Positions 16,926 to 36,636 of a stretch of DNA of 64,000 nt are shown piece after piece. Below the pieces are notes generated by a model. It saw nothing but the letters and a program-made list of their open reading frames with translations, was not told the origin of the DNA and searched no databases. The stretch is from Mesonia aestuariivivens. Its GTDB lineage: Bacteria; Bacteroidota; Bacteroidia; Flavobacteriales; Flavobacteriaceae. Position numbers and translations under genes: made by a program. Numbering within the stretch: the first letter of the stretch is position 1; each line of letters starts with the position of its first letter. The stretch spans positions 62,001 through 126,000 of the forward strand of contig NZ_JAHWDF010000009.1 of assembly GCF_019311235.1 (NCBI RefSeq), given 5' to 3'.

Positions 16926-16970
16926 CCTGATTTTTGTCATTTTTCAACAAGTACTCCTCTTCTATTTTTG
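16926..16970 (+). promoter_or_regulatory. FNR/CRP-type operator and -7 element of usp-hemN
   Basis: Operator CCTGATTTTTGTCATT (16926-16941, TGA-N6-TCA) is followed after exactly 21 nt by the -7 element TATTTTTG (16963-16970). The start codon is 25 nt further. No -33 box sits in between, as expected for a class II activator-dependent promoter centred near -41. Confidence 0.75.
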
Positions 16971-16995
16971 CTTCAAAATATAATGTACGAGGAAG

Positions 16996-17814
16996 ATGAA
17001 TATTTTAATGCCTACTGATTTTTCTGAAAACTCATGGAATGCGATTAGCTATGCTTTATCGTTCTTTAAGAATGTGTACTCTAATTTTTATTTTGTACAC
17101 GTTAACTCTCCTGAATGGGAGCAGAAAAACGAAAACTTATCACCCACGTTAGTAGCTTCTAAAAACGCTACAGTGGCTTTTCAACATTTACTAGAACGTT
17201 TGGGAAAGGAAAAACTGAATAAAAAACATCAGTTTTTTACTTCTATAGAAAGCGGTCATTTTGTAGATACGCTTCGAGCACATGTGAGTGAACGTGAAAT
17301 AGATTTTATTGTGATGGGTACCCAAGGTGCTAGTGGTTATCAAGAAGCGACTGTAGGAAGCCATTCTACAGAAGTAATTACAAGGGTTAAATGCCCTGTG
17401 TTAGTTATTCCTGAAAACGCTACTTATCGTGAGCCTAGACATATTACATTTCCTACAGATTTTAATATTTCTTATAAAAATAAAGTGATACACACCTTAA
17501 AACAGGTTTGTCATTTTAATGAATCTGCATTAAATGTACTTTACCTTTCTAAGAAAAGCGAAGACCTTACCGAAAGACAAGAAAGTAATCGGGTATACTT
17601 AAAAGAACAACTGATGGAAATTGAACACGGTTTTCATTTTACCAGAAACGATACGTTAGAAGAAGCAGTAGAGTCGTTTGTCACCTCTCACGACACGCAA
17701 ATGATCACTATGATGGCAAAAAATTTGAATTTCTTTCAGCATATTTTATTTCATCCTTTAGCCCATAGAATTAGCTATCATAAAGAGGTTCCGTTTTTAG
17801 TTTTACACGAATAA
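16996..17814 (+). CDS. two-domain universal stress protein
   Basis: A 272-residue tandem UspA protein. The first domain starts MNILMPTDFSENSW and carries the ATP-binding motif GTQGASG...GSHST (around residues 107-125). The second domain (about 148-272) lacks a clear copy of that motif. Usp proteins of this form accompany low-oxygen and stationary-phase regulons. It is preceded by an FNR/CRP-type box and followed after 10 nt by hemN, so the two form an operon likely to be induced under low oxygen. Confidence 0.92.
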   Translation: MNILMPTDFSENSWNAISYALSFFKNVYSNFYFVHVNSPEWEQKNENLSPTLVASKNATVAFQHLLERLGKEKLNKKHQFFTSIESGHFVDTLRAHVSEREIDFIVMGTQGASGYQEATVGSHSTEVITRVKCPVLVIPENATYREPRHITFPTDFNISYKNKVIHTLKQVCHFNESALNVLYLSKKSEDLTERQESNRVYLKEQLMEIEHGFHFTRNDTLEEAVESFVTSHDTQMITMMAKNLNFFQHILFHPLAHRISYHKEVPFLVLHE

Positions 17815-17824
17815 AAAAATAATT

Positions 17825-19186
17825 ATGTGCCAACCGCTCATTCAAAAATATAATATTCCAGGGCCTAGATATACGAGTTATCCTACCGTACCATATTGGG
17901 ACAGCAATACATTTTCGGCTCGACAATGGAAAAAATCTGTGCTTAACTCTTTTGAAGAAACAAATATTTCTGAAGGGATAAGCCTTTATATTCATTTACC
18001 TTATTGTGAAAGTATGTGTACTTTTTGTGGTTGCAACAAACGCATCACCAAACGTCACGAAGTAGAAGAACCTTATATAACTTCTGTATTAAAAGAATGG
18101 CAGTTATACCTTGACTTTCTACCCAATAGACCCTTAATTAAAGAAATACATTTAGGGGGTGGCACACCTACGTTCTTTTCTCCTGAAAATTTACAACAGC
18201 TTATTAAAGGAATTTTAAAGCATGCTGAATTAGCCAATAATTATCAGTTTAGTTTTGAAGGTCACCCCAACAATACCACCAAAGCACATTTAGAAGCACT
18301 TTATGAGGTTGGTTTTAGACGAGTAAGCTACGGCGTACAAGATTATGATGTTAAAGTACAACAAGCCATTCATCGTATTCAACCTTTCGAGAAAGTTGAA
18401 AAAGCTACGCAATTGGCTCGAGAAATTGGTTATACTTCTATTAGCCACGATATTATTTTCGGGTTGCCTTTTCAAAGTATCGATGCGGTTGAAAATACCA
18501 TTCTAAAGACTAAAGCTTTAATGCCAGATCGTATTGCCTTTTATAGTTATGCTCACGTACCTTGGATTAAAGGCAACGGACAACGAGGTTACAGCGAACA
18601 ACATTTACCAAGTGCAGAAACAAAACGTACCCAATACCAACTCGGGAAAGAATTGTTAGAAGAAATGGGCTATGTAGAAATAGGTATGGATCATTTTGGA
18701 CTTAAAACCGACGAACTTTACCAGTCATTAAAAACCAATAACTTGCACCGAAATTTTATGGGCTACTCTGCTTCAAAAACGCAATTAATGATAGGCTTAG
18801 GAGTGTCTGCTATAAGTGATAGTTGGTATGGTTTTGCACAAAATTCTAAAAGTATAGAAGAATATCAAGAAATGGTAGGCAGAGGAGATTTACCTGTTTT
18901 TAGAGGTCATGTATTAAACGATGAAGACCTTATGATTAGAAAACACATTTTAAATTTAATGTGCCATTTACAAACAGATCTGAATGAAGAAAATCGCTTT
19001 TTCGAACTTCCCGAAACCTTACACCGTTTACAGGAAATGGAAAAAGATGGACTTATTAAAATAAATCCAGATTCATTACAAATTACAGAAAAAGGAAGAC
19101 CTTTTGTTAGAAATATATGCATGGCGTTTGATTTGCGCCTGCAACGAAAAAAACCAGAAACAAGATTATTCTCGATGACGGTTTAA
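17825..19186 (+). CDS. hemN: oxygen-independent coproporphyrinogen III oxidase
   Basis: Radical-SAM enzyme of 453 residues that decarboxylates coproporphyrinogen III to protoporphyrinogen IX without oxygen. The cluster motif CESMCTFCGC (CxxxCxxC plus the extra Cys typical of HemN) follows the start PRYTSYPTVPYW. GGGTPTF and the C-terminal HemN domain are present. It supplies haem for the cbb3 oxidase and truncated haemoglobin encoded nearby when oxygen is scarce. Second gene of the usp-hemN operon, ending at a strong terminator. Confidence 0.96.
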   Translation: MCQPLIQKYNIPGPRYTSYPTVPYWDSNTFSARQWKKSVLNSFEETNISEGISLYIHLPYCESMCTFCGCNKRITKRHEVEEPYITSVLKEWQLYLDFLPNRPLIKEIHLGGGTPTFFSPENLQQLIKGILKHAELANNYQFSFEGHPNNTTKAHLEALYEVGFRRVSYGVQDYDVKVQQAIHRIQPFEKVEKATQLAREIGYTSISHDIIFGLPFQSIDAVENTILKTKALMPDRIAFYSYAHVPWIKGNGQRGYSEQHLPSAETKRTQYQLGKELLEEMGYVEIGMDHFGLKTDELYQSLKTNNLHRNFMGYSASKTQLMIGLGVSAISDSWYGFAQNSKSIEEYQEMVGRGDLPVFRGHVLNDEDLMIRKHILNLMCHLQTDLNEENRFFELPETLHRLQEMEKDGLIKINPDSLQITEKGRPFVRNICMAFDLRLQRKKPETRLFSMTV

Positions 19187-19222
19187 TAATTAAGTTAAAG
19201 TAGGTTAAGTTTTTAGTAGGCG

Positions 19223-19271
19223 GCCAGCACCCTAAGGTTTTTAAGTAAACTGAAGGGTGTTGGCTTTTTTT
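19223..19271 (+). terminator. intrinsic terminator of usp-hemN
   Basis: Stem GCCAGCACCCT / AGGGTGTTGGC (one G-T wobble) with a 20-nt loop and a seven-base T run. Confidence 0.85.
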
Positions 19272-19417
19272 GAAAAATTCACCTTCTATCCTAAAAATAG
19301 AAATTTAGTGGTATTCTGAAGAGATTAAAGCTTTGAAGCTATTTAATGTTTTTCGCTTGATCGGAATCAAGAGCTTTTATAAAACATCAAAAACGACTGC
19401 CGAAAAGCCAAGCCCCG

Positions 19418-19798
19418 TTAAGGCCTTGCCATAAAAATTTTCATATGAAAATTGGTGGCCATATTTCTCGCATGAAACTTAGCACGTTCAGCCATTTCTC
19501 CTTCAAAATATTCGTCTAAGGTATTTATCCAAAGGTTAAGCCATACACCAAAATGTTTAGCTTCAATTTGGTGATTAAATTGATGATCTACCATAATATG
19601 AGCCCTTCCTGGTCGCCCTCGGAAGGTTCCTGCATAAAATAAATTACTATCCCAGAAATCTGTTAGTTTTTCTAAATGATCACCCCAATTGGTAATCGTC
19701 TCATTAAAAAAAAAGCCAATCTCGGGATTGGCTCTTACTTTATCGTAAAACCGATGCACGAGTAATTGTACATCGGCTCTGTTTTCTAATTCTTTCAT
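19418..19798 (-). CDS. group III truncated haemoglobin
   Basis: A 126-residue globin of the TrHbIII class, recognised by LVHRFYDKVRANPEIG, KLTDFWDS, the region FRGRPGRAH and the proximal-His segment HFGVWLNLW. Group III globins are linked to microaerobic growth and nitric-oxide or oxygen handling. It follows a 97-residue membrane protein with a 2-nt gap, downstream of an FNR/CRP-type box, so it belongs to the putative low-oxygen regulon. Confidence 0.9.
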   Translation of the reverse strand: MKELENRADVQLLVHRFYDKVRANPEIGFFFNETITNWGDHLEKLTDFWDSNLFYAGTFRGRPGRAHIMVDHQFNHQIEAKHFGVWLNLWINTLDEYFEGEMAERAKFHARNMATNFHMKIFMARP

Positions 19799-19800
19799 AA

Positions 19801-20094
19801 TTAAATCATCATCATAATTCCGTAGTACAAAATAAATAATAAATTTACAGATACACTACCTACTAAAGCGTTAAAAACTTGTTTTGAGGGCAAACAAGAC
19901 AATACTGCAGTATTATACCCCATGCTAATCATAACCACTAAAAATAACTGTAGCATTTGCCAAACTCCGTGATCGGTCATTAGAATAAGCATCGCTGCAA
20001 TGGCTCCTAAACAACTCGAAGCAATAATACCTATTGATGCACTACCGTAATACATTTCTTTAAATTCACCGTAACATTTTTGATATACAGACAT
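19801..20094 (-). CDS. small three-helix membrane protein, unknown function
   Basis: I do not recognise this 97-residue protein. It has three strongly hydrophobic segments (about residues 20-38, 45-62 and 75-95), a cytosolic-looking N-terminus MSVYQKCYGEFKEMYYG and a mid-chain SCLPSKQ loop. It is translated immediately before the truncated haemoglobin and shares its promoter. A partner or membrane anchor for haemoglobin function is only an inference from context. Confidence 0.75.
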   Translation of the reverse strand: MSVYQKCYGEFKEMYYGSASIGIIASSCLGAIAAMLILMTDHGVWQMLQLFLVVMISMGYNTAVLSCLPSKQVFNALVGSVSVNLLFILYYGIMMMI

Positions 20095-20119
20095 CTTCTC
20101 TTGTTTTTAAATTACACTA

Positions 20120-20164
20120 TAAAATTACAGAGGAAGAGCGTTTTGAAAAATGATATTAATCAGG
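20120..20164 (-). promoter_or_regulatory. FNR/CRP-type operator and -7 element of the membrane protein-trHb unit
   Basis: In gene orientation the operator is CCTGATTAATATCATT (20149-20164). After exactly 21 nt comes TAATTTTA (20120-20127), a one-base deviation from TAnnTTTG. Distance to the start codon is 25 nt, as for usp. Confidence 0.7.
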
Positions 20165-20260
20165 TTAAAAAATCACATCCATTTAAAATAAATACATTTA
20201 ATTTTTAACTTTATTATTATTAACTTAACTTTATTAATATTAAATTAAATTTTATAAAAA

Positions 20261-20524
20261 ATGGCTCAACTTCCTATTAAATGTCCCAGCTGTCAAGACA
20301 CGCTCGAGGTAAGTGAACTTTCTTGTGCTAGCTGTGCTACAAAAATTTCAGGAACATATGCACTTCCTGCCTTAATGCAACTGCCTGTAGAAGATCAAGA
20401 ATTTATATTGGCTTTCGTGATAACTGGCGGTAGCTTAAAAAAAATGGCTTCACAATTAGGTAAAAGTTACCCTACCGTGAGAAACAAATTAGATGATATT
20501 ATTAATCAATTAAATTCAAAATAG
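20261..20524 (+). CDS. DUF2089-like zinc-ribbon/HTH protein
   Basis: An 87-residue protein with two CxxC knuckles (CPSC near residue 9 and CASC near 22) forming a zinc ribbon, followed by a helix-turn-helix-like segment (SLKKMASQLGKSYPTVRNKL). This layout matches DUF2089 proteins, probably small DNA-binding regulators. It leads a tight operon with a membrane protein (2-nt gap) and a secreted hydrolase, which it may regulate. Confidence 0.8.
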   Translation: MAQLPIKCPSCQDTLEVSELSCASCATKISGTYALPALMQLPVEDQEFILAFVITGGSLKKMASQLGKSYPTVRNKLDDIINQLNSK

Positions 20525-20526
20525 AA

Positions 20527-21111
20527 ATGAAAAAAGTATTACTTGAGCCTTTTGAACATTATACTGAAAAGAAACTTTTAGGCATTGGCATTCTTGGTAC
20601 CCTTATCGGTTGTTTTATAGCTTATGTATTTCATGCTCGATTTGACGGAGTTTTGGATGTTCATTTTGTAAAAGCTATAGAAATCTACCATCCGTTTTTA
20701 GATAACAGCATCAACATTATTACGCTTTCTTTATTACTATTTATCACTGGAAAAATAATCAATAAGAAAACTCGATGTATCGATATTTTAAATGCTTGTT
20801 TAATTGCAAGATTACCGTATTACCTCATCAGCTTCGGGAACATTAATAATTATATGCTAATGCTTTCTCAAAAACTTCTAAACTTTGATCCTTCACAACC
20901 TCAACTTATGCCTATTGGCGGAGTTGACTTGCTCCTACTTTTAGCTTTCGCTTTCATCTCATTACTTCTACTCATTTACTTTTTGTATTTGCTTTATAAA
21001 GGGTATCAGATTGCCACCAATGCTAAAGGTGCTTTAGCGATTGGTTTATTTATCTTGGCTGTTTTAATTGCTGAAGTAATTTCAAAATACCTCATTTATA
21101 CCCTCTACTAA
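20527..21111 (+). CDS. Yip1-like multi-pass membrane protein
   Basis: A 194-residue protein with about five hydrophobic segments and an N-terminal soluble start MKKVLLEPFEHYTEKK. Pattern and length fit YIP1-family membrane proteins, but no diagnostic motif is visible. It lies between the DUF2089-like regulator and an alpha/beta hydrolase, each with a 2-nt spacing, so the three are one operon. Role unknown. Confidence 0.7.
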   Translation: MKKVLLEPFEHYTEKKLLGIGILGTLIGCFIAYVFHARFDGVLDVHFVKAIEIYHPFLDNSINIITLSLLLFITGKIINKKTRCIDILNACLIARLPYYLISFGNINNYMLMLSQKLLNFDPSQPQLMPIGGVDLLLLLAFAFISLLLLIYFLYLLYKGYQIATNAKGALAIGLFILAVLIAEVISKYLIYTLY

Positions 21112-21113
21112 TC

Positions 21114-22496
21114 ATGAAAAAACTCCTATTAATACTCCTTTTATTTACTTGTCAATTAAGCTTTACCCAATCTATAGAAGGTGATTGGAAAGGAAGTTTA
21201 AACGTACAAGGAACCACGCTCCCTACTGTTTTTCATATTGAAAAAATAGACAGCAGCTATACCGCAACAATGGATAGTCCAAAACAAAATGCGTTCGGCA
21301 TTCCGCTTGATGAGGTAAAACTTACAGATAACCATCTTAGTATTACTCATGCAGCAGCTCAACTTAGTTATGAAGCAACATTAGTTGATGATACTCATTT
21401 AGAAGGAACATTCGAGCAACGTGGTTTTAGTATCTCGCTAAATCTTGAAAAATTTTCTACGGAAGAGAAACAAACTTCTGCCGTAAAACCAAATCGACCA
21501 CAAACACCAATGGCGCCTTATGCTTATCGCGTAGAAGAGGTTACTTTTTATAACCCGAAAGCAAAAATAAATTTAGCAGGAACGCTTACGATTCCTCAAG
21601 GAAAAGGAAAATTTCCAGCAGTTATTTTAATTTCAGGTAGTGGCCCTCAAGACCGAAATGAAGAAATTTTTAATCATCAACCTTTTAAAGTTTTAGCCGA
21701 TCACCTGACCAAAAACGGAATTGCAGTATTGCGTTACGATGACCGAGGAACGGCTGCTTCTGAAGGAGATTTCGCCAGCGCTACAACTTTTGATTTTACT
21801 GATGATGCACAAGCAGCTATCGAATACTTAAAAAGCAGAAAAGAAATCAATAAGAAAAAAATTGGGGCGATTGGTCACAGTGAAGGTGGTGCCATTGCTC
21901 CTATTCTAGCTTCGAAAAATATTTTAGATTTTATCGTATTAATGGCTGCTCCTGGACTTCGTGGAGATCTACTTTTAAACCTTCAGCGTAAAAAGCAAGA
22001 AGAGTTATTAGGTATTAATCCTGAAGCTACCCAAAAACGACTTGATATTTTTAGTGAAGTCTATGAAGTGATTTTAGATACCAGTTTAACTTCCGAAGCA
22101 ACAGAACAACAAACCCTTGCCGTTTTTGAAAAACATTGGAAAGGAATGGTTCCTGAATCAAAATTAGCACAAATAAACGAACAACATAATTCTGAATGGC
22201 TCAAAACTTTTATTCGCTTTGACCCTTCACCTTATCTTCAAAAAGTAAATAGTGGGGTTTTGGCTTTAAATGGCGAAAAAGACACGCAAGTTCCTGCAAA
22301 AGAAAATTTAGCGGCGATTGAAAAAAGTGTTCAACAATCTAGTGAAAAGCTAACCCTAAAATCATATCCAAAACTGAATCACTTATTTCAAGAAGCAACT
22401 ACTGGAAGTGTACAGGAATATGAAGAAATTGAACAAACAATTTCGCCAAAAGTTTTAGCAGATATTAGTACGTGGATTTTAGAGACGACCCGCTAA
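21114..22496 (+). CDS. secreted alpha/beta hydrolase with N-terminal beta domain
   Basis: A 460-residue protein with signal peptide (MKKLLLILLLFTCQLSFTQ), a beta-rich N-terminal domain (about 20-120, starting IEGDWKGSL) and an alpha/beta hydrolase domain (about 140-460). The nucleophile elbow is GHSEGGA and the likely catalytic His is in LNHLFQEA. The GSGPQDRNE motif forms the oxyanion side. Probably a periplasmic or outer-surface esterase or peptidase; substrate unknown. Confidence 0.88.
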   Translation: MKKLLLILLLFTCQLSFTQSIEGDWKGSLNVQGTTLPTVFHIEKIDSSYTATMDSPKQNAFGIPLDEVKLTDNHLSITHAAAQLSYEATLVDDTHLEGTFEQRGFSISLNLEKFSTEEKQTSAVKPNRPQTPMAPYAYRVEEVTFYNPKAKINLAGTLTIPQGKGKFPAVILISGSGPQDRNEEIFNHQPFKVLADHLTKNGIAVLRYDDRGTAASEGDFASATTFDFTDDAQAAIEYLKSRKEINKKKIGAIGHSEGGAIAPILASKNILDFIVLMAAPGLRGDLLLNLQRKKQEELLGINPEATQKRLDIFSEVYEVILDTSLTSEATEQQTLAVFEKHWKGMVPESKLAQINEQHNSEWLKTFIRFDPSPYLQKVNSGVLALNGEKDTQVPAKENLAAIEKSVQQSSEKLTLKSYPKLNHLFQEATTGSVQEYEEIEQTISPKVLADISTWILETTR

Positions 22497-22565
22497 AATT
22501 GTAATTTTGTTGTGTCATGACCGACTTAGTCTTGGTAATGCTTATAAAAACTCACTCCGTTGATA

Positions 22566-25082: not shown

Positions 25083-26351
25083 TTATCTAAAACGTTCGAA
25101 CATCGCTTTATCTAAACTTTCTTGATGATCTGGATGCGCTATAGATATTAAGGCTTTTGCACGTTGCTTTAAACTTTTTCCGTATAAATTTACCACTCCA
25201 TTTTCTGTAGCAATATAATGAACGTGAGCTCTTGTTGTAGTGACTCCTGCGCCCTCTTTTAAGTAAGGAACTATTTTTGTAATTCCTTTAGCGGTAGCAG
25301 ATGGCATGGCAATAATCGCTTTTCCTCCTTCAGAAAGGGATGCTCCACGAATAAAGTCCATTTGGCCGCCAACGCCAGAATATTGCATTTTACCAATGGT
25401 ATCTGCACAAACTTGACCGGTTAAATCTATTTCTATGGCACTATTAATGGCGGTCACTTTTGGGTTTCGACGAATAATAGAAGTATCGTTGGTATAAGCT
25501 GCTTCTTTAAAATGCACTAACGGATTGTCATCTAAAAACTGATATAATTTAGGAGAGCCTATAGCAAAACAGGTAACTAGTTTTCCATTTTTCACCACTT
25601 TATTTTCACCGGTAATAATGCCTTTTTCTATAAGCGGTAAAACTCCGTCTGAAAACATTTCAGTATGGATTCCTAAATTTTTATGGTTGTATAAATTATT
25701 CAACACTACATTAGGGATTCCGCCAATTCCCATCTGCAAAGTAGCGCCATCTTCAACTAATTGAGCTACATGGTAACCAATTTGTTTTTCAACTTCAGAA
25801 GGTTCTACAGTAAATACTTCATGAATAGGCTCATTTACTTCTACGGCAGCATCAATTTTACTCATATGTATAATGCCATCACCATGTGTTCTTGGCACTT
25901 GCGGATTTACCTGTGCAATTACTTGTTTAGCACATTGTATAGCAGTTAGCGTTACATCTATAGAAGTCCCTAAGGAACAGTAACCGTGCTTATCTGGTGG
26001 TGATACTTGAATAAAAGCGACATCTAATGGTAAAATTCCGCGTTTAAACAACAGGTGCATTTCGCTTAAGAAAATAGGAATATAATCACCGTGTTCAGAA
26101 TTTACCGTGCGTCTTACGTTACCACCTACAAAACAACTATTTACGTGAAAACTTTTGTTGTAAGGATCTTGAGCATACAAAGCATCACCTTCCGTATGCA
26201 TCTGCACCAGTTCTATATCTTTAATTTCTTGATAACGTTCGCATAGCGCTTTAATAATTACCTTAGGGGTCATTGCGGCTCCCTGAAAAAATACACGATT
26301 TCCCGATTGCACATTTGCTACAGCATCTTCTGCCGAAATAAATGGTATCAT
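25083..26351 (-). CDS. acetyl-CoA hydrolase/CoA-transferase family protein
   Basis: A 422-residue enzyme of the Cat1/4-hydroxybutyrate CoA-transferase family. The N-terminal MIPFISAEDAVANVQSG, the glycine motif GIGGIPNVVL and the active-site Glu in GIHTEMFSDG are visible, as is FAIGSPKLY. It would move CoA between acetate and another acid, or hydrolyse acetyl-CoA; the acceptor is unknown. Upstream, a -7 element with a degenerate FNR/CRP-type box at the same 21-nt spacing as in the cbb3 genes suggests low-oxygen control. Confidence 0.88.
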   Translation of the reverse strand: MIPFISAEDAVANVQSGNRVFFQGAAMTPKVIIKALCERYQEIKDIELVQMHTEGDALYAQDPYNKSFHVNSCFVGGNVRRTVNSEHGDYIPIFLSEMHLLFKRGILPLDVAFIQVSPPDKHGYCSLGTSIDVTLTAIQCAKQVIAQVNPQVPRTHGDGIIHMSKIDAAVEVNEPIHEVFTVEPSEVEKQIGYHVAQLVEDGATLQMGIGGIPNVVLNNLYNHKNLGIHTEMFSDGVLPLIEKGIITGENKVVKNGKLVTCFAIGSPKLYQFLDDNPLVHFKEAAYTNDTSIIRRNPKVTAINSAIEIDLTGQVCADTIGKMQYSGVGGQMDFIRGASLSEGGKAIIAMPSATAKGITKIVPYLKEGAGVTTTRAHVHYIATENGVVNLYGKSLKQRAKALISIAHPDHQESLDKAMFERFR

Positions 26352-26376: not shown

Positions 26377-26421
26377 CAAAATTAGTACACTAGTAGCATT
26401 TAAAATATGATATTTAGCATA
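26377..26421 (-). promoter_or_regulatory. possible weak FNR/CRP-type operator and -7 element of the CoA-transferase gene
   Basis: TAATTTTG in gene orientation (26377-26384) matches TAnnTTTG. Exactly 21 nt upstream lies a 16-mer that reads TATGATATTTAGCATA on the plus strand (26406-26421) and matches the other boxes at about 12 of 16 positions, with one half-site reading GCA instead of TCA. Confidence 0.4.
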
Positions 26422-27291: not shown

Positions 27292-27612
27292 GATTCTTTT
27301 TATTGTCGCTCTGAAATTGCCTGTTGGCAGACAGGTTTATTTTCAGGATTTTATTACTTATTTTTTGAAAATTGTCAAGTCAAGCGGAGTCGAGAACTTT
27401 TTATTTTTGTAATTTCAAAAAACCTCTCGACTCCGCTAGAGGTGACCAATTCATTAATTTTCAATTTTTCCTTGTAAATTATAAAGAGATACCATCACCT
27501 TGAAATCGATTCAGGACTTCATTTCGCAAGATTTTATTTTTCTATTTGTTATGTGGTTCCAAATCAAGTCTGGAATGACGAAAGCATCAATGAGAACAAA
27601 AAAACATTATCG
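27292..27612. other. repeat-filled spacer between ccoH and the SafE-like gene
   Basis: No gene is visible. It contains two copies of the dispersed 13-mer in opposite orientation and other degenerate repeat-like text (for example AAGTCTGGAATGACG near 27565). Confidence 0.6.
27383..27437. repeat. inverted pair of dispersed repeats forming a 13-bp stem
   Basis: AGCGGAGTCGAGA (27383-27395) and its exact complement TCTCGACTCCGCT (27425-27437) are separated by 29 nt. In RNA this gives a stable stem-loop in the ccoH-SafE spacer. Confidence 0.75.
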
Positions 27613-28206: not shown

Positions 28207-29628
28207 TCACCTAAAACTACGTGGGCCTAAAAATGAAGCTTTTGTTTTTTCGATTAATTCATCTCCACTATAAACTCCAATTTCCACGCGCTCTTTATCA
28301 CTTTCTAATGCGGACTGATTAATATCTATAAATAATGTTCCTTTAGACAAACCTTGTTCTGGCACTTCAAAATTAGCATGTGTCACCAATTCTATTTTTC
28401 CTTGATGAGATAATAATTTAAAATGAACATCTTCAATACTTTTTACTGTTTTATTGACCAGCTTAAAGGTGTACACGTTTCTAATCACATTATTATCCTT
28501 TTTTTCATACAACTGGCCTGGCAAACGTAATAAAGAAGCTTCTACATCATTTCTTAAAAATAGCATTCCAGTTAAAACACCGATAAGAATAATTAAAACG
28601 GCGGTATAAGCTTTTAGACGAGGACTAAAAGTAACTTTCTTTTTTTCTGCAATATTCTCTTCACTAGCATACCGAATTAAGCCTTTAGGTAAATCTACCT
28701 TTTCCATTATAGCATCACAGGCATCAATACAGGCGGTACAATTAACACATTCTAATTGGGTACCGTTTCTAATATCTATTCCGGTAGGACAAACATGTAC
28801 ACATTGAGAACAATCTATACAATCACCTTTACCTGTAGCTTCACGGTCTTCGTTTTTTCTAAATTTAGCTCTTCCTTTTTCTTTCTCTCCGCGTTTATAA
28901 TCATACGCAACCACAATAGATTTTTGATCTAATAAAACGCCTTGCAATCTACCATAAGGACAGGCAATAATACACACTTGCTCTCTAAACCATGCGAAAA
29001 TAAAATAGAAGACCCCAGTAAATATAAGAAGAGAGATGAGTGTGCTTTTGTGAGTACCGGGGCCTTCTGTTACATATCTTAAAAGTTGATCACTCCCAAT
29101 TAAATAAGCTAAAAATACATTGGCGATAAGAAAACTAATGATAAAATAGATACTCCATTTTAAAGCTCTTTTTCTAATCTTTTCTGCATTCCAATCTTGT
29201 TTAGCTAAACGAATTTGCTTTCCACGATCGCCATCTATCCAATATTCAATCTTTCTAAATACCATTTCTAAAAAAATGGTCTGCGGACAAATCCATCCAC
29301 AAAATATTCGACCAAAAGCTACGGTAAACAAGATAATAAAGACAATACCGGTGAGCATCGATATGACAAACAAGTAAAAATCTTGGGGCCAAAAAGGAAA
29401 TCCAAAAATATTAAAGCGACGTTCCATCACATTAAATAACAAAAACTGGTTTCCATTCACCTTTATAAAAGGAGCTGAAATTAAAAACAGCAGAAGAATG
29501 TAACTTACCCAGGTTCTATATTTATAAAATTTCCCACTAGGCTTTTTAGGAAAAACCCAAGATCGTTTTCCTTCTTTGTCGATTGTACCTATAGAATCTC
29601 TGAATCTTTCGTTATCTGAAGTTTCCAA
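28207..29628 (-). CDS. ccoG: cbb3 oxidase accessory ferredoxin-type membrane protein CcoG
   Basis: A 473-residue protein with about five transmembrane helices and a polyferredoxin core. Motifs are CGWICPQTIF, CIIACPYGRLQG and two cluster-binding sets, CIDCSQCVHVCPTGID and CVNCTACIDACD. A C-terminal Ig-like FixG domain follows (about 365-473). CcoG is a copper(II) reductase needed for metal insertion into the oxidase. It lies 78 nt after ccoP with a hairpin in the spacer. Confidence 0.95.
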   Translation of the reverse strand: METSDNERFRDSIGTIDKEGKRSWVFPKKPSGKFYKYRTWVSYILLLFLISAPFIKVNGNQFLLFNVMERRFNIFGFPFWPQDFYLFVISMLTGIVFIILFTVAFGRIFCGWICPQTIFLEMVFRKIEYWIDGDRGKQIRLAKQDWNAEKIRKRALKWSIYFIISFLIANVFLAYLIGSDQLLRYVTEGPGTHKSTLISLLIFTGVFYFIFAWFREQVCIIACPYGRLQGVLLDQKSIVVAYDYKRGEKEKGRAKFRKNEDREATGKGDCIDCSQCVHVCPTGIDIRNGTQLECVNCTACIDACDAIMEKVDLPKGLIRYASEENIAEKKKVTFSPRLKAYTAVLIILIGVLTGMLFLRNDVEASLLRLPGQLYEKKDNNVIRNVYTFKLVNKTVKSIEDVHFKLLSHQGKIELVTHANFEVPEQGLSKGTLFIDINQSALESDKERVEIGVYSGDELIEKTKASFLGPRSFR

Positions 29629-29697: not shown

Positions 29698-29706
29698 ATA
29701 ATTTAT

Positions 29707-30666
29707 CTAAATTTCATCGGTTACTTTTATGGTATCTAATGAAGTGGTGTTTTCTGCTCTTTCTAAATGATCTGCTTTAGGAGCATCACCTTCTTCAACC
29801 CAAAGATCTCCTTGAGGTTCTTTTGGTTCTGCGGGCGTGGTTCCTTGTAATGAAATTACATAACTGGCTACTTGTGCTCTTTCTACAGGTTTTAGCGTTC
29901 CTTCCCAAGCTACCATTCCTTTACTAGAACGGCCTCCTTTGGTTACGGTTTTAAATACATTTTTAATTCCTCCTCCTAAAATCCAATATTTATCGGTTAG
30001 GTTAGGGCCAATACCACCACCACCATCAGGTTTGTGGCAAGCAGCACAATTGGTTTGAAAAATATTTTTCCCTGCGGCTAAATCTGAAGCTTCTGTTAAC
30101 AATTCAACCGTATTAACATCTACTAAGTTTTTAGCGGTTTTTTTGTATTCTGCAATAGCTATTTTTGCTTCGACCACTTCAGCTTCATATTCTTCAATTT
30201 GATTATAGTCTTGAAAAATATGAAATCTTACTAAATACACTCCTGCAAAAAGTATGGTAGCATAGAAAAGATAGATCCACCAAGGTGGTAAATTATTATC
30301 TAACTCTTTTATACCATCATAATCATGATCTAAAACAATTTCATCTTCTTGATCTAAGGGTTTACGACCTACTAACTTATGATAAGTTTTCTTAAACCAT
30401 ACAAAACGTTGGGCTCTACTTTCTTTTTCTGCAGCTAAGTAGCGTTCTTTTGCTTCGGCATCTAAAGATTTAAAAAGCACATTCTGTAGGGCAGCTATAC
30501 AAAACTCTACAGCGATGGCAAACAAACCTGCAATTCCTAAAACCAACCAAGCCAACGGATAAGTGGTAAACACAGAGCCTGTTTTTACTTCTACCGTGTA
30601 TTCTATTAATAAGTAGCCAATTAGTAAAAATAAAACTACTCTAAGGTATGATGCAAAACTTCTCAT
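29707..30666 (-). CDS. ccoP: cbb3 oxidase cytochrome c subunit, mono-haem
   Basis: A 319-residue subunit with an N-terminal membrane region (two helices within about 10-60), the cbb3 N-terminal domain with NNLPPWWIYLFYATI (about 124-138) and one C-type haem domain (CAACH, 207-211; distal Met likely in KGMVAWEG). Proteobacterial CcoP usually binds two haems; only one CxxCH is present here. A Pro/Glu-rich tail of about 40 residues follows. The 5' end overlaps ccoQ by 4 nt. Confidence 0.93.
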   Translation of the reverse strand: MRSFASYLRVVLFLLIGYLLIEYTVEVKTGSVFTTYPLAWLVLGIAGLFAIAVEFCIAALQNVLFKSLDAEAKERYLAAEKESRAQRFVWFKKTYHKLVGRKPLDQEDEIVLDHDYDGIKELDNNLPPWWIYLFYATILFAGVYLVRFHIFQDYNQIEEYEAEVVEAKIAIAEYKKTAKNLVDVNTVELLTEASDLAAGKNIFQTNCAACHKPDGGGGIGPNLTDKYWILGGGIKNVFKTVTKGGRSSKGMVAWEGTLKPVERAQVASYVISLQGTTPAEPKEPQGDLWVEEGDAPKADHLERAENTTSLDTIKVTDEI

Positions 30667-30848: not shown

Positions 30849-30859
30849 GGTTTTTGGTT

Positions 30860-33058
30860 TTAGTTTGAACTTGTTTCTTGGTTAGCGTCTTTAATTTTTA
30901 TATCGGTTCCTAATCGTTGAAGGTATGCGATAAGAGCTACAACTTCACGATTTTTCATATCTACAAACTCGATCCCGTTTTCTTTTGCAAACTTTTTATC
31001 TGCTTCATAGCTGTCTGCAAAATCTGGATCTGAGTAAAGGTTTTGCTCAATTTGTGCTGCCTGCTCGTCCATCCATTTTTGTGCATTTGCTATTTCTTCA
31101 TCGGTATAAGGCACTCCTAAAGAAACCATCGCACGCATTTTAGCTTCTGTTTGGCTACGATCGTGCTCGTCTTTGGTTAGCCATTTGTAACTAGGCATAA
31201 TTGAACCTGAAGAAGTGGTTTGCGGATCGTAAAGGTGATTAAAGTGCCAGTTGTCTGAATATTTACCACCTACTCTAAATAAGTCTGGTCCTGTTCGTTT
31301 ACTTCCCCATAAAAATGGGTGATCATATACATATTCTCCAGCTTTAGAATATTCTCCATAACGTTCTACTTCACTTCGGAAAGGTCTAATCATTTGAGAG
31401 TGACAAGAAACACAACCTTCACGAATGTATATATCTCTACCTTCTAGTTCTAATGGTGTATAAGGCTTGACACTTGAAATCGTTGGAATGTTAGAATCGA
31501 TCATCAAAGTAGGTACAATTTGAACAGCACCCCCTATTAAAATTGCAATTGTCGCATAAATAGTTAAACGTACTGGTCTTCTTTCTAACCAAGTATGGTA
31601 ACCTTCACCTGAAACTCGTTTTTGAGTTACTTTTGTTAATGGAGCTGCTTCTGCTAACTCATCAGTTACTTCATTTCCTGCTTTAATGGTTCTTACAATA
31701 TTATAAAGCATAACGAAAGCTCCTAAAATGTATAAACTACCACCGATAGCTCTCATCCAATACATGGGTATAATTTCTTGTAAGGTTTCTAAGAAATTAC
31801 CATAAGTTAAACTTCCATCGGGATTAAATTGTTTCCACATTGAAGCTTGCGTAAAACCAGCTACATACATAGGCAACGCATACATAATGATTCCTAAAGT
31901 ACCTACCCAAAAATGTACATTAGCTAATTTGGTAGACCATAAAGTAGATTTCACTAATCGAGGCACTAACCAATATACCATTCCGAAGGTTAAAAAGCCA
32001 TTCCAAGCTAAAGCGCCCACGTGAACATGTGCAATAATCCAATCACTATAATGAGCGATGGCATTAATGTTTTTTAAAGCGAGCATAGGACCTTCAAACG
32101 TAGCCATCCCATAACCGGTGATTGCAACCACCATAAATTTAAGAACAGGATCTGTTCTTACTTTATCCCAAGCTCCTCTTAAAGTTAACAAACCATTAAT
32201 CATCCCTCCCCAAGACGGTGCAAGCAACATAATAGAAAAAGCAACTCCTAGGTTTTGTGCCCAATCTGGTAAAGCTGTGTATAATAAATGGTGAGGACCA
32301 GCCCAGATATAAATGAATATTAAAGACCAAAAGTGAACAATTGATAATCGGTAAGAATATACCGGACGATTAGCCGCTTTAGGCACAAAGTAATACATTA
32401 AACCTAAAAATGGAGTCGTTAAGAAAAAGGCTACCGCATTATGCCCATACCACCATTGTACCAGTGCATCTTGTACACCTGCATAGACAGAGTAACTTTT
32501 TAATGCACTTACCGGCAACTCTATATTATTAAAAATATGAAGTACCGCTACCGTTACAAACGTAGCTAAATAAAACCAAATTGCTACATACAAATGACGC
32601 TGTCTTCTTTTGAAGATAGTCCATATCATATTTACCCCAAAGGCTACCCAAACCAAAGCAATAGCAATATCAATAGGCCACTCTAATTCGGCATATTCTT
32701 TAGAAGAAGTATAACCTAACGGAAGGGTAATTGCTGCAGCGACTATAATTAACTGCCAGCCCCAAAAATTAAAGTTACTTAATGCATCACTAGCCATTCT
32801 AGCCTTTAATAAACGCTGTAAAGAATAATAAACCCCAGCAAAAATTGCATTCCCTACAAAAGCAAAAATTACGGCGTTGGTATGCAATGGACGTAATCGT
32901 CCAAAACTCAGCCAGGAGATTCCATCGGTAACGTTAGGGAATAAAAACATAAACGCTAAAAGAAGTCCTACAGACATCCCTACGATTCCCCAGAAAATCG
33001 TAGCGTACAAGAATTTTTTTACGATCTTATTGTCGTAATAAAACTGATCCATTTCCAT
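30860..33058 (-). CDS. ccoNO: fused cbb3 oxidase subunits I and II
   Basis: A 732-residue fusion. Residues about 1-480 are CcoN, the 12-helix haem-copper subunit, with the copper-site His pair in GAGPHHLLYTALP and the haem ligands in AHVHVGALAWNG. The C-terminal part is CcoO, a membrane-anchored mono-haem cytochrome c with CVSCH (549-553) and IMPSYKWL. It reduces oxygen with high affinity and pumps protons. The N-O fusion is characteristic of Bacteroidota. It follows ccoS with a 2-nt gap. Confidence 0.96.
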   Translation of the reverse strand: MEMDQFYYDNKIVKKFLYATIFWGIVGMSVGLLLAFMFLFPNVTDGISWLSFGRLRPLHTNAVIFAFVGNAIFAGVYYSLQRLLKARMASDALSNFNFWGWQLIIVAAAITLPLGYTSSKEYAELEWPIDIAIALVWVAFGVNMIWTIFKRRQRHLYVAIWFYLATFVTVAVLHIFNNIELPVSALKSYSVYAGVQDALVQWWYGHNAVAFFLTTPFLGLMYYFVPKAANRPVYSYRLSIVHFWSLIFIYIWAGPHHLLYTALPDWAQNLGVAFSIMLLAPSWGGMINGLLTLRGAWDKVRTDPVLKFMVVAITGYGMATFEGPMLALKNINAIAHYSDWIIAHVHVGALAWNGFLTFGMVYWLVPRLVKSTLWSTKLANVHFWVGTLGIIMYALPMYVAGFTQASMWKQFNPDGSLTYGNFLETLQEIIPMYWMRAIGGSLYILGAFVMLYNIVRTIKAGNEVTDELAEAAPLTKVTQKRVSGEGYHTWLERRPVRLTIYATIAILIGGAVQIVPTLMIDSNIPTISSVKPYTPLELEGRDIYIREGCVSCHSQMIRPFRSEVERYGEYSKAGEYVYDHPFLWGSKRTGPDLFRVGGKYSDNWHFNHLYDPQTTSSGSIMPSYKWLTKDEHDRSQTEAKMRAMVSLGVPYTDEEIANAQKWMDEQAAQIEQNLYSDPDFADSYEADKKFAKENGIEFVDMKNREVVALIAYLQRLGTDIKIKDANQETSSN

Positions 33059-33060
33059 TT

Positions 33061-33270
33061 TTATGATTGTTTATCTTTAGTTAATATTTGTTTTTGATTT
33101 TTCTCTTTTTTCAGATCTTCATCTTTCACTAACTCATCTTCAAAAAGCATTCGCACCGATGGCGTATATACATCGTCATACTGCCCACTCTTTACTGAAA
33201 AAATGAAAATAACGAAGAATAATACCGCAACGGTGACGCTAATGGCTAATAAAACATACATGACACTCAT
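33061..33270 (-). CDS. ccoS: cbb3 oxidase assembly protein CcoS
   Basis: A 69-residue protein with one transmembrane helix and the FixS hallmark KSGQYDDVYTPSVRMLFEDE. The ATG at 33270 (MSVMYVLLAIS) is chosen over the one at 33297, because the upper ATG lies inside the predicted -7 element. CcoS is needed for cofactor insertion. It is the first gene of the ccoS-NO-Q-P-G-H unit. Confidence 0.9.
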   Translation of the reverse strand: MSVMYVLLAISVTVAVLFFVIFIFSVKSGQYDDVYTPSVRMLFEDELVKDEDLKKEKNQKQILTKDKQS

Positions 33271-33294
33271 ACTAAAACTCTTCTTATTAGAGTT

Positions 33295-33339
33295 CAAAAA
33301 TAAATGTGAAGACTTTCTTAAAAAATGACATTTGTCAGG
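33295..33339 (-). promoter_or_regulatory. FNR/CRP-type operator and -7 element of the cbb3 operon
   Basis: In gene orientation the operator is CCTGACAAATGTCATT (33324-33339, perfect TGACA-N2-TGTCA symmetry), then exactly 21 nt, then TATTTTTG (33295-33302). The ccoS start is 24 nt downstream. Confidence 0.8.
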
Positions 33340-33412
33340 GTTTGAAAAATAGGCTTCTAAAATTAGGTTTAGGTTTTAGGGAATTTTTAATGCGGTGAGT
33401 AGTTAGTGAAGT

Positions 33413-33431
33413 AGTGAGTGAGTGAGTGAGT
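33413..33431. repeat. tetranucleotide microsatellite (AGTG)
   Basis: Four tandem AGTG units plus a partial one, in the spacer between the cbb3 promoter region and the PdxH-like gene. Likely length-variable; no visible coding effect. Confidence 0.85.
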
Positions 33432-33463
33432 TCTAAGATAAAAGATAAAAAACAATTTCAATT

Positions 33464-34072
33464 TCATAATTCAAACAAATCGAAACCATGTTGTACGTGC
33501 TTGCTCCAAGTATAATTTTTCTCTAATTGATAATGGATGGTTTTTCTTATACCTACGGAAGAATAGCATATAAAATCAAATGATTTGGGTTTTACTAAAT
33601 AACCACCCCAATGTTTTGGCATAGGAATGGGTTTATTTTTAAATTTCTTTTCAAAATATAACAACCTGTCTTCTAAAGCTATTCGTGAGTTTAATTGACT
33701 TCCTTGTGCTGATGCCCAAGCTCCTAATTGGCTTCCTGCAGGTCGTTGTAAAAAATAAGCTTCTGATACTGATCGTGGTAATTTTTCTGCCTTTCCTTGA
33801 ATATGAATTTCGCAATCTATTTCTTGCCAGTTAAAATGCAAACTTACATTAGGGTTTCGTGCAATAGCCCTTCCTTTTTCACTCGTGTAATTGGTGAAAA
33901 ATAAAAAACCTTCCCAAGTAAAGCGTTTTAACAATACCATTCTACTCTTAGGAGATGCGTCTTCCCCTATAGTCGTTAATAACATGGCATTCACCTCTCC
34001 TATTTCATCAGACTGTTCTGCTTGGTAAAACCAATGTTGGAATTCTTGTATAGGGTTGTGATCTAGATCCAT
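33464..34072 (-). CDS. pyridoxamine 5'-phosphate oxidase-like protein, divergent C-terminus
   Basis: A 202-residue flavin-dependent split-barrel protein. The FMN-site region SRMVLLKRF and FFTNYTSEKG and the LGAWAS motif match PdxH. The C-terminal substrate-binding segment that in PdxH reads EFWQG...RLHDR is here DFICYSSVGIRKTIHY, without the RxH pair that binds the substrate phosphate. No frameshift explains this. It may have a different substrate, or another PdxH elsewhere may do the vitamin B6 reaction. Confidence 0.75.
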   Translation of the reverse strand: MDLDHNPIQEFQHWFYQAEQSDEIGEVNAMLLTTIGEDASPKSRMVLLKRFTWEGFLFFTNYTSEKGRAIARNPNVSLHFNWQEIDCEIHIQGKAEKLPRSVSEAYFLQRPAGSQLGAWASAQGSQLNSRIALEDRLLYFEKKFKNKPIPMPKHWGGYLVKPKSFDFICYSSVGIRKTIHYQLEKNYTWSKHVQHGFDLFEL

Positions 34073-34083
34073 ACCTTCACTTT

Positions 34084-34113
34084 ATTTCTTAAAAACACTT
34101 TATTTTAAGAAAT
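34084..34113. other. AT-rich inverted repeat between ccoI and the PdxH-like gene
   Basis: An 11-bp perfect stem (ATTTCTTAAAA / TTTTAAGAAAT) with an 8-nt loop. No T run follows, so it may be a weak terminator of ccoI or an operator for the next gene. Confidence 0.45.
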
Positions 34114-34174
34114 TATTTATAAATTATTCTTGCATTTCAACTTCCAAATATCCAACCTCAATGCTAAAAATTAA

Positions 34175-36565
34175 TTACAATTTCTTAAACAATTTTCTAC
34201 CTTTTAGATTGGTAAGTACCGTTACAAATACCAATACCGTAATAGAACTTAAGGGCATTAAGATAGCTGCAATAATAGGCGACAACTGTCCGGTTACTGC
34301 AAAATACAATCCAATAACATTATAAATAAAAGATAGTACAATGCTCGATTTAATAATACCTACAGTTTGTTTAGCGGCTTGAATAAATGCACCAATCTGC
34401 TGAAACTGCCCAGCTTCTAAAATAGCATCACAAGCCGGTGAAAACACATTTACATTTTCGGCGATAGAAATTCCTACCTCACTCTGCGCTAAAGCTCCGG
34501 CATCATTTAAGCCATCGCCGACCATCATTACTTTTCGACCTTCTTTTTGGAGTGTATGTATATAATTGAGTTTATCTTCTGGTTTTTGATGAAACAGCAT
34601 ATCTGTTCCTAAAGGTAATAATTGCTGCAAGTATTTTTTTTCTCCTTGATTATCTCCAGAAAGAATCATTAAATGAAATCCTTTTTTTAATTGCTGAAAA
34701 AGTTCTTTTACTCCTTTTCTATATTGATTATGAAACACATATTTACCTTTATAATGATTACCTGTCTTTACATGAACAGCGGTAGCTAAAGTCTCGGTTT
34801 CAGTTTCATTGCCTACAAATTTAGCAGAACCTACGGCGATAGATTTATTGGCTTTTATAGCGTGCATTCCTTTTCCTGTAATTTCTTGAAAATCGTCTAA
34901 GGTTTGTATATCTTGTTCTGCTAGAAAATCATACAATGCTCTGCTTAACGGATGGTTGGAAGAACGCAATGTGTTTTTTAGTAATGAAGCTTCTTCATTA
35001 GAAAGTGGCATTCCTTCGTAAGCGATACTTGCTTTTTTATTCGTGGTAATGGTTCCTGTTTTATCAAAAATAAGCGTATCAATTCTTGCTATTTTTTCAA
35101 TTACGTTTGCGTTTTTTAAGTAGAATTTTTGTTTACCAAAAATACGCAGCATATTCCCCAAGGCAAAAGGGGTGGCTAATGCCAAAGCACAAGGGCATGC
35201 AATAATAAGTACAGAAGTAAGTACATTTATCGCTAAACTACTATCGACCATTAACCAATAAGATGTCGCAACTACCGCAATGCTCAACACTGCCCAAGTA
35301 AAATGTTTACTTATGGTGTTAATTAAACCCACAAAACCCTGTTCTCGATCTTTTGAAAACACCGCATTGCTCCATAATTGTGTTAAATAACTCTGTTCTA
35401 CAGATTTAATGGCCTCCACTTCAATAGCACCTGCCAACTGTTTTCCTCCGGCAAAAAGTTGATCTCCAGAATTTTTAGCTACTGTTTCACTCTCTCCAGT
35501 TACAAAACTGTAATCTATTTGTCCATTTCCTGAAATTAAAATACTATCTACTGGGAGTAACTCTGCATTTCTTATGAGTAATCGATCTCCTTTTTTAATC
35601 TTATATACTTGAATATTTTCTTCTTCAACTCCACCTTCAATTTTAGAAATTTTAGTCACCGCAATTGGGAAATACGATTTATAATCGCGCTCAAAAGAAA
35701 GAAATGAATAGGTTTTTTGCTGAAAAAATTTACCTAACAATAAAAAGAAAACCAAACCAGTAAGGCTATCAAAAAAACCAGAACCCGTATTGGTCAGCAC
35801 TTCATAAGTACTTCTTAAAAAAAGAACCGAAATCCCTAAAGCAATAGGTACATCTATATTTAAAATCTTAGAACGTACACCTTTATAGGCCGAAATAAAA
35901 TACTCTTGTGCAGCATAAAATACTACGGGTAATGAAAAAGCAAAGGTAAGTCCGCGAAACAAATACTTGTATTTTTCTAACCAAAAATCAGAAACTTCAA
36001 AATATTCAGGAAAAGAAAGAAACATCACATTTCCAAAAGCAAAACCAGCTACTCCCAATTTATAAATTAAACTACGGTCTACTTTTTTCTTTCCCTTTGA
36101 ATAATCGTTTAAACTAATGTAAGGCTCATAGCCTATAGCACTAAGAAGCTTAACCACTTCTTTTAGTGAAACTGTATCAGTTTTAAAAGTTATACGTACG
36201 GTTTTCTTTGGAAAATTAACCTGTGACGTTTTTATGGCTGATTGTAACTGATTTAAATTTTCTAAAATCCAAATGCACGAACTACAATGCATATGTGGGA
36301 TGTACAGGTTAACTACCTGAATATTTCCAGCGTTAAACTCTATTAATTTTTTAATAATATCAGGATGATCGAGATAATCGTATTTTCCTTCAATTTCCTG
36401 CGGAATAGCTCCAGGAGACGATTGCAAATCGTAATAGCTGGATAAATTATTAGTTGAAAAAATCTCATAAACCGTTTGGCAACCATGACAGCAAAAGTTT
36501 TTCTCGTCAAACAAAATAGGCGATTTCACACAATCATTTCCACAATGATAACAAGGTTGTTGCAT
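34175..36565 (-). CDS. ccoI: copper-transporting P1B ATPase of the cbb3 locus
   Basis: A 796-residue P-type ATPase. An N-terminal Cys-rich domain (CYHCGNDC, FCCHGC), an HMA domain with HMHCSSC, eight membrane helices with the transport motif CPCALA, the phosphorylation motif DKTGTIT, the HP motif in SSNHPLSRAL and the hinge GDGLNDAGAL are all present. It exports copper for insertion into the cbb3 binuclear centre. The ATG at 36565 (MQQPCYHCG) is chosen over 36604, which lies upstream of the predicted transcript start. Confidence 0.93.
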   Translation of the reverse strand: MQQPCYHCGNDCVKSPILFDEKNFCCHGCQTVYEIFSTNNLSSYYDLQSSPGAIPQEIEGKYDYLDHPDIIKKLIEFNAGNIQVVNLYIPHMHCSSCIWILENLNQLQSAIKTSQVNFPKKTVRITFKTDTVSLKEVVKLLSAIGYEPYISLNDYSKGKKKVDRSLIYKLGVAGFAFGNVMFLSFPEYFEVSDFWLEKYKYLFRGLTFAFSLPVVFYAAQEYFISAYKGVRSKILNIDVPIALGISVLFLRSTYEVLTNTGSGFFDSLTGLVFFLLLGKFFQQKTYSFLSFERDYKSYFPIAVTKISKIEGGVEEENIQVYKIKKGDRLLIRNAELLPVDSILISGNGQIDYSFVTGESETVAKNSGDQLFAGGKQLAGAIEVEAIKSVEQSYLTQLWSNAVFSKDREQGFVGLINTISKHFTWAVLSIAVVATSYWLMVDSSLAINVLTSVLIIACPCALALATPFALGNMLRIFGKQKFYLKNANVIEKIARIDTLIFDKTGTITTNKKASIAYEGMPLSNEEASLLKNTLRSSNHPLSRALYDFLAEQDIQTLDDFQEITGKGMHAIKANKSIAVGSAKFVGNETETETLATAVHVKTGNHYKGKYVFHNQYRKGVKELFQQLKKGFHLMILSGDNQGEKKYLQQLLPLGTDMLFHQKPEDKLNYIHTLQKEGRKVMMVGDGLNDAGALAQSEVGISIAENVNVFSPACDAILEAGQFQQIGAFIQAAKQTVGIIKSSIVLSFIYNVIGLYFAVTGQLSPIIAAILMPLSSITVLVFVTVLTNLKGRKLFKKL

Positions 36566-36591
36566 CTTCTTTTCTAAAATATTTACAACTA

Positions 36592-36636
36592 CAAAGTTGC
36601 ACAAGAAGCCTTGGTTTAAAAATGATAATTGTCAGG
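36592..36636 (-). promoter_or_regulatory. FNR/CRP-type operator and -7 element of ccoI
   Basis: In gene orientation the operator is CCTGACAATTATCATT (36621-36636), then 21 nt, then CAACTTTG (36592-36599), one base off TAnnTTTG. The start codon chosen for ccoI is 26 nt downstream. The divergent DUF6134-like gene has a TACCTTTC at 36669-36676, 32 nt from the box on the other side. Confidence 0.7.

Follow-up and report, generated by a model that had tools for sequence, protein, structure and literature searches.

A stretch of 64,000 nt from Mesonia aestuariivivens (assembly GCF_019311235.1, contig NZ_JAHWDF010000009.1, positions 62,001-126,000 of the forward strand; genome of 3.33 Mb), hereafter called the window, harbours four 16-bp operators with the core TGA-N6-TCA, which are placed upstream of usp-hemN, a membrane protein-globin pair, the cco genes of a cbb3 oxidase, and ccoI (Table 1). 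From sequence comparison and a predicted domain model, it is likely that an FNR regulon is served here, through an unchanged operator, by a FixL-like histidine kinase and a class II activator in which a receiver domain is fused to a CRP-type protein (the receiver-CRP fusion).

Operator geometry and promoter type

An earlier note on this DNA had described the four boxes as CCTGA-N6-TCATT in gene orientation, each separated by exactly 21 nt from a -7 element. Their coordinates and strands were verified in the sequence, and the 21-nt gap was present at 4/4 window sites. Compared with the compound pattern CCTGA-N6-TCATT-N21-TAnnTTTG, operators 1, 2, 3 and 4 presented 0, 1, 0 and 1 mismatches, respectively. 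The operator sequence alone was rejected as evidence, since the bare core is uninformative, occurring at chance level in the window (20 copies vs. 17.0 expected), and the 16-mer by itself is not rare genome-wide. The combination of operator, spacing and -7 element, on the other hand, yielded 18 matches in the whole genome at ≤2 mismatches versus 2 for the reversed control, with exact matches at operators 1 and 3 only.

The spacing was also observed in relatives, represented by 80 loci fetched around orthologues of the fusion regulator. With a core gap of 23 nt (equal to 21 nt after the 16-mer), 149 cases of TGA-N6-TCA followed by TAnnTTTG were counted, in sites that are not independent, many being from orthologous promoters; the other 39 core gaps (range 5-44) accounted for 67 sites together, the largest single one for 11. 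The family operator, derived from 151 sites that include two from the window, was MTGAY-N4-RTCAT, with Y after TGA in 97%, R before TCA in 99%, and T after TCA in 98%, and no E. coli-type TTGA-N6-TCAA was matched at the corresponding gap in the 80 loci. Of the outer bases claimed to be conserved, the T after TCA is kept in the relatives, whereas the outer CC is a local trait (the base before TGA being C in 56% and A in 33%, and the outermost base C in only 11%) and the second T is present in just 58%. The first gene within 1.5 kb downstream that was homologous to one of the window's set encoded a universal stress protein (USP)-like protein at 104 of the 151 sites, although USP-like genes are not always first in the operon; it was ccoN at 8, hemN at 6, and the globin-pair membrane protein at 2, with none at 31.

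A matrix scan, suggested earlier with a matrix from the four sites, was run with 83 promoters of other genera. Exclusion of the window, of loci L049-L053 and of near-identical promoters left 114 promoters, from which 31 more were dropped (28 because no downstream gene was recognised, plus a single promoter from each of L110, L113 and L116); the resulting ungapped alignment comprised only promoters preselected for the exact core and TAnnTTTG. The four boxes took ranks 1-4 in the window, followed by a fifth, weaker site before an acetyl-CoA hydrolase/transferase gene and, far below, by a score of 4.6, while the best of 30 simulated windows reached 10.1. A sequence model built from the same 83 promoters gave 54 matches at E ≤ 10 in the whole genome, with E-values that are rough. 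The cco promoter ranked first, followed by usp-hemN, ompW (8.7e-5), yceI (3.2e-4) and the membrane protein-globin pair; next came a protein of 597 aa (0.004), two weaker sites at which no clear -7 was seen, ccoI, the acetyl-CoA hydrolase, another usp gene (0.027) and a gene for KAS III (0.055).

In a sample of 296 Flavobacteriales genomes, many of only 0.3-0.6 Mb, the strict pattern was found in 135, and its reversed control in 7 genomes with one hit each. A scan of the phylum detected it in 11/11 genomes of the family, 2/2 other members of the order, 10/16 from the remaining orders of its class (1-6 hits per genome) and 12/89 from other classes (1-2 hits per genome), with a control matching 3/118 genomes (hand tally); a related regulon may exist in those remaining orders. 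It was also considered that C before the distal TGA might mark fusion sites and A FNR sites. This was rejected, because several genomes of family f7 without a listed full-length fusion contain only CTGA sites (G033 3/3, G059 4/4, G067 3/3 and G105 3/3).

According to the available text of a study of Flavobacterium psychrophilum, the -7 box spans -12 to -5 (PMC9723704). Because the gap is 21 nt, the operator would therefore be centred at -41.5, over the -33 region, which supports the class II geometry proposed earlier, the start position being deduced from the -7 box. The -33 box was likewise absent from all four promoters, as claimed: read by eye, the stretch 17-24 nt ahead of the -7 element contained no TTG. 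At this distance, TTTG was present in 0/83 and TTG in 2/83 of the related promoters, whereas among 1793 other TAnnTTTG sites the shares were 6.2% and 16.9%, a deficit that arises partly by construction because about half of the tested positions are blocked by fixed bases of the operator. Instead of the standard Bacteroidota primary-sigma promoter (-33 TTTG/TTG with -7 TAnnTTTG), the 4/4 window sites and 81/83 relatives held the -7 element only; judged by sequence, this is an activator-type variant of that promoter, and it suggests how an activator replaces the -33 element in Bacteroidota.

The -7 element of ccoI deserves separate mention. It started with T in none of 33 operator hits before ccoI, which came from 31 of 32 loci and include two that are too far upstream to be genuine, and in 27/27 hits before ccoN (27 of 30 loci). 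Since the ccoI -7 is never T-initial in relatives, CAACTTTG in the window is as expected for ccoI and no defect of the Mesonia genome; it appears to represent a conserved, weakened promoter. The listed TTG start of ccoI (36604) adjoins this -7 element, so that the frame would begin upstream of the transcript; translation more likely begins at the ATG at 36565. A further TGA-N6-TCA near a DsbD_2 gene (27366-27377), with the -7-like TATTTTTG one base too far and on the strand opposite to the gene, was treated as chance.

The receiver-CRP fusion and the FixL-like kinase

The likely activator of the boxes, on sequence grounds, is the receiver-CRP fusion encoded upstream of operator 1. Its receiver domain was clearly recognised (Pfam Response_reg, E 1.3e-30), and the phospho-acceptor D52 and K104, as well as the recognition-helix residues E316, I319 and R320, were invariant in 27 aligned sequences. 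Six HTH_Crp_2 matches were found in the genome at E ≤ 0.01 (the fusion, four other CRP-like proteins and one ParB-like), among which the fusion scored best and alone had an ATESxIR helix. The regulator does not qualify as FNR proper. The fusion contains a single cysteine, C51, within the receiver, and so has no set of [4Fe-4S] ligands; no FNR orthologue was found in the Mesonia genome at E ≤ 1e-15 to the FNR query besides the fusion itself (6.2e-30); and the operator is MTGAY-N4-RTCAT, not TTGAT-N4-ATCAA. The arginine that holds the cAMP phosphate in cAMP-binding CRP members was also absent from the fusion's aligned segment, NIPYQESATAV. Any oxygen sensing must lie outside the fusion, most likely in the adjacent FixL-like kinase.

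In other Flavobacteriales, an FNR-like protein stands alone; it is about 226 aa long and has an N-terminal CxxC, and its first-ranked NCBIfam family was Fnr (80.9 bits, below the cut-off of 228). The recognition helix of this protein, GTATESxIRxLSxF, corresponds to GIATESLIRTLSAF in the fusion, and G-x-A-T-E-S-x-I-R is common to both regulators in most sequences. In 20 stretches chosen for an FNR-like or motif hit, the FNR-like gene adjoins ccoI in most, and boxes were found before ccoI, ccoN and usually hemN where present; in one genome, the kinase, fusion, usp and FNR genes are clustered and divergent from ccoI. The FNR-like proteins (L165-L184, e.g., L165 14007-14687) keep the CxxC and mostly also a cysteine in EVCFIP (by eye), and in their main series the third E. 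coli FNR cysteine position is Ser or Asn.

The kinase gene directly precedes the fusion gene in 75/79 loci (by script); the four misses include two fusion genes near a contig end and one overlapping start call. Compared with PDB sequences, the kinase PAS domain was best matched by FixL (E 2e-13), and ranks 1-11 were all haem PAS domains of FixL, DosP or DOS. A predicted model of this domain (pLDDT 80, low at residues 79-86) retrieved FixL at ranks 1-15 with Foldseek, and VIA-align placed it closest to haem PAS domains, with Z 16.5 for 10jx, 16.3 for 1v9z and 16.0 for 1d06 (root-mean-square deviation 2.0, 114 residues). Conservation was followed in 49 fusion-bearing genomes, from 49 of the 80 loci, with L066 excluded from kinase counts because of its overlapping start call (n = 48). 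H67, which aligns with the FixL haem-ligand histidine, was kept in 44/48 genomes, comprising 21/21 that lack FNR and 23/27 that bear it, and R87, which aligns with the FixL arginine near bound oxygen, in 35/48. The kinase scored 96.8 bits against the cut-off of 850 of NF041777, the NCBIfam equivalog for rhizobial FixL; it does combine a FixL-like PAS sequence and fold with a histidine at the haem-ligand position. The kinase is proposed to be a FixL-like haem-type oxygen sensor, with haem and an oxygen response predicted.

Co-occurrence with FNR and competing explanations

Within the 49 fusion-bearing genomes, 27 also had a stand-alone FNR and 22 did not, the fusion being the only match in 19 of those 22. 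A box preceded cco genes in 22/22 of the genomes lacking FNR, 20 at ccoN, all with gap 21 (the script kept one gap per operator, the largest fitting, and allowed one free base in the -7), and 2 at ccoI. The two ccoI cases were Mangrovimonas, in which a gap-21 operator stands before AACCTTTG, upstream of ccoI; in these two genomes (L208, L214, L237 and L238) ccoI, ccoS and ccoN are consecutive (by eye), with the operator at ccoI and none at ccoN. Their kinases also have no arginine where FixL has R220. Mapped onto a tree of the fusion protein, the presence or absence of FNR required at least 6 changes, in either direction, of which 3 are forced by well-supported branches, a count that draft genomes may inflate. 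On balance, it is probable that in Flavobacteriaceae an FNR-type regulator was replaced more than once by the FixL-like haem kinase and the receiver-CRP fusion, with the helix, the operators and the -41.5 position at cco being kept. If true, the sensor was exchanged beneath an unchanged regulon. This would constitute a natural experiment in network evolution, in which related species seem to run identical boxes with an FNR-type regulator, a kinase-driven one, or both. A second receiver-CRP type, 41-44% identical to that of the window, was the sole full-length one listed in 18/35 fusion-bearing genomes of the order sample by hand tally (e.g., G177, G110, G018 and G087).

In the mechanism proposed, low oxygen would cause the PAS haem to lose its oxygen, and the kinase would then phosphorylate D52 of the fusion. 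The fusion dimer, placed on MTGAY-N4-RTCAT at -41.5 instead of a -33 element, would help RNA polymerase to use the -7 element, turning on the cbb3 oxidase with its copper-type ATPase, haem synthesis that needs no oxygen, the truncated globin, OmpW and some other products. In many relatives, the stand-alone FNR-like protein with the same helix may serve these operators alone or jointly. Published support is indirect: in the available part of the F. psychrophilum study, the cbb3 oxidase was strongly increased and haem-synthesis enzymes were increased under oxygen limitation (PMC9723704).

Co-occurrence across the order also speaks for it: the strict motif was found in 125/140 genomes in which a CRP relative matched the FNR query at E ≤ 1e-15, versus 10/156 of the others (hand tally; Fisher p 5e-53). 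Several points weigh against this interpretation. The order-wide association is confounded by kinship and genome size, and in 10 genomes the motif was present with no regulator detected, in 15 a regulator with no motif; the comparison within fusion bearers is the stronger test. The dependence among the 149 spaced sites counts on the same side. The PAS model also resembles, less closely, unassigned PAS domains (Z from 14.1) and flavin LOV domains (from 13.7 down), and R87 was missing in 2/21 genomes that lack FNR. An intact haem-type signature was found in 18/21 kinases without FNR and 14/27 with it (p 0.016, raw); a decay of this signature where FNR is present, as these raw counts suggest, gained no support from a tree test. 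Moreover, we infer binding, activation, phosphotransfer, haem and the oxygen response, and for Mesonia the transcript starts as well.

Other explanations differ in how far they account for these data. A regulon that is real and answers to a signal other than oxygen via a haem PAS, such as redox, nitric oxide (NO), flavin state or another, is possible, if doubtful: PAS domains bind many ligands, LOV domains are among the fold matches, and a globin and hemN also fit NO or redox stress. Nevertheless, the nine best PDB sequence matches are FixL or DosP domains, haem PAS domains lead the fold ranks, and the histidine at the haem position is kept in every FNR-lacking genome counted. It is unlikely that a different CRP-family protein recognises the boxes, with the fusion next to operator 1 by coincidence. 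The four further CRP-like proteins of the genome, three of which are short (open frames of 197-200 aa) with the helix near the C-terminus, have helices (SSRVVISR, TPETISR, QPESLSR and SLRSLNR) that differ from the ATESxIR of the fusion and FNR, and, unlike the fusion, all four fell short of E 1e-15 against the FNR query.

That the dimer represses instead of activating is very unlikely. A factor at -41.5 could in principle block polymerase, but the known FNR and FixK class II sites activate, and the lack of a -33 box at the four sites, together with the conserved imperfect -7 of ccoI, suggests promoters needing help. Hardly credible is the view of the box and spacing as copies of one promoter with no regulatory meaning, even though orthologous promoters are alike and TTTTTnAA, which spans the operator edge, is common to all four spacers of the window. 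The sequences have diverged elsewhere (mean column identity of 59% over 83 sequences, counting 13 fixed columns, 12 of them fixed by the selection pattern), and the same geometry precedes the unrelated genes usp, hemN, ccoN, ccoI, the globin pair, ompW and yceI.

Known systems, target genes and neighbouring features

The system described here, the FixL-like kinase with the receiver-CRP fusion, shares with E. coli FNR and FNR-type regulators the CRP/FNR fold and helix type, the low-oxygen genes, the TGA-N6-TCA core and the class II position. It differs in the receiver domain, in the lack of a cysteine cluster and of a separate FNR in Mesonia, in the operator (MTGAY-N4-RTCAT vs. TTGAT-N4-ATCAA), and in a TAnnTTTG-type -7 without -35/-33. 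The available text on the rhizobial FixL-FixJ-FixK and hFixL-FxkR-FixK cascades (PMC7888657) likewise presents a FixL-like PAS kinase and a CRP-family activator of cbb3 genes, and FixK and FnrN using one box. Unlike in rhizobia, where FixJ or FxkR and FixK are separate proteins, the receiver and the CRP activator form one protein, so that a single step would replace those of FixJ and FixK, and the host belongs to the Bacteroidota. The hypoxia response of F. psychrophilum is similar in the rise of cbb3 and haem synthesis and in the TAnnTTTG -7 box, and the main text of that study mentions neither Crp nor FNR, and its available passages name no operator or regulator for this response (PMC9723704). 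A study of Flavobacteriales metagenome-assembled genomes also has CRP/FNR homologues, predicted to be carbon-sensing and MalR-like, with no such oxygen box in its available text (PMC8510549). Searches of the open-licence PMC literature gave no title or abstract that describes this operator, and none on a FixL/receiver-CRP pair in Bacteroidota, which is weak evidence of absence. The findings provide a low-oxygen operator searchable in any genome of the family and name two regulator types.

As for the targets, the designation as a low-oxygen regulon is supported, in that the cbb3 oxidase, the copper-type ATPase CcoI, the oxygen-independent HemN, the truncated globin and OmpW form a low-oxygen set. 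The name ccoS is given by resemblance.

Table 1. Features of the window, with positions counted from its first nucleotide (E, expectation value of the whole-genome model; score, 83-promoter matrix).
Feature	Position	Strand	Context and evidence
Histidine kinase with one FixL-like PAS, proposed oxygen sensor	14142-15374	+	Pfam PAS, HisKA, HATPase_c
Receiver-CRP fusion regulator, proposed activator	15384-16436	+	Pfam Response_reg, cNMP_binding, HTH_Crp_2
Operator 1, CCTGATTTTTGTCATT	16926-16941	+	Before usp-hemN; E 1.7e-5; score 34.6
-7 of operator 1, TATTTTTG	16963-16970	+	Gap 21 nt
usp, universal stress protein	16996-17814	+	Pfam Usp
hemN, oxygen-independent coproporphyrinogen III oxidase	17825-19186	+	NCBIfam TIGR00538 over cut-off
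Truncated haemoglobin, group III like	19418-19798	-	PDB 2ig3 (group III) E 1.6e-9; Pfam Bac_globin 17.7 bits, below cut-off 21
Small membrane protein, 97 aa	19801-20094	-	Open reading frame; no Pfam family over cut-off
-7 of operator 2, TAATTTTA	20120-20127	-	Gap 21 nt
Operator 2, CCTGATTAATATCATT	20149-20164	-	Before membrane protein and truncated haemoglobin; E 5.8e-4; score 24.8
Acetyl-CoA hydrolase/transferase, candidate fifth target	25083-26351	-	Pfam AcetylCoA_hydro, AcetylCoA_hyd_C
-7 of fifth site, TAATTTTG	26377-26384	-	
Fifth, weaker operator, core ATGCTAAATATCAT	26406-26421	-	Before acetyl-CoA hydrolase/transferase; 1 mismatch; E 0.015; score 20.7
ccoG	28207-29628	-	Pfam FixG_C, Fer4_18
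ccoP	29707-30666	-	Pfam FixP_N
ccoN/ccoO, fused cbb3 oxidase subunits I/II	30860-33058	-	NCBIfam PRK14485; Pfam COX1, FixO
ccoS-like small gene, first after operator 3	33061-33270	-	Translation
-7 of operator 3, TATTTTTG	33295-33302	-	Gap 21 nt
Operator 3, CCTGACAAATGTCATT	33324-33339	-	Before ccoS-ccoN/O-ccoP-ccoG; E 3.4e-7, best in genome; score 37.1
ccoI, heavy-metal P-type ATPase, likely ATG start	34175-36565	-	
-7 of operator 4, CAACTTTG	36592-36599	-	Gap 21 nt; first base not T
Operator 4, CCTGACAATTATCATT	36621-36636	-	Before ccoI; E 0.014, partial match without -7; score 23.3

The 597-aa protein found in the whole-genome ranking (L239 513-2303; G000:C1:171012-172802) has no Pfam match and a good operator upstream, and is a candidate new low-oxygen protein. 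The arrangement of the membrane protein followed by the globin was also found in locus L116. Between the fusion gene and operator 1, seven perfect copies of the 7-bp repeat ATAGAGA were observed (16442-16491), as well as a small open reading frame with no Pfam family over cut-off (16582-16836); in many relatives, the operator lies within about 10-70 nt after the fusion gene.

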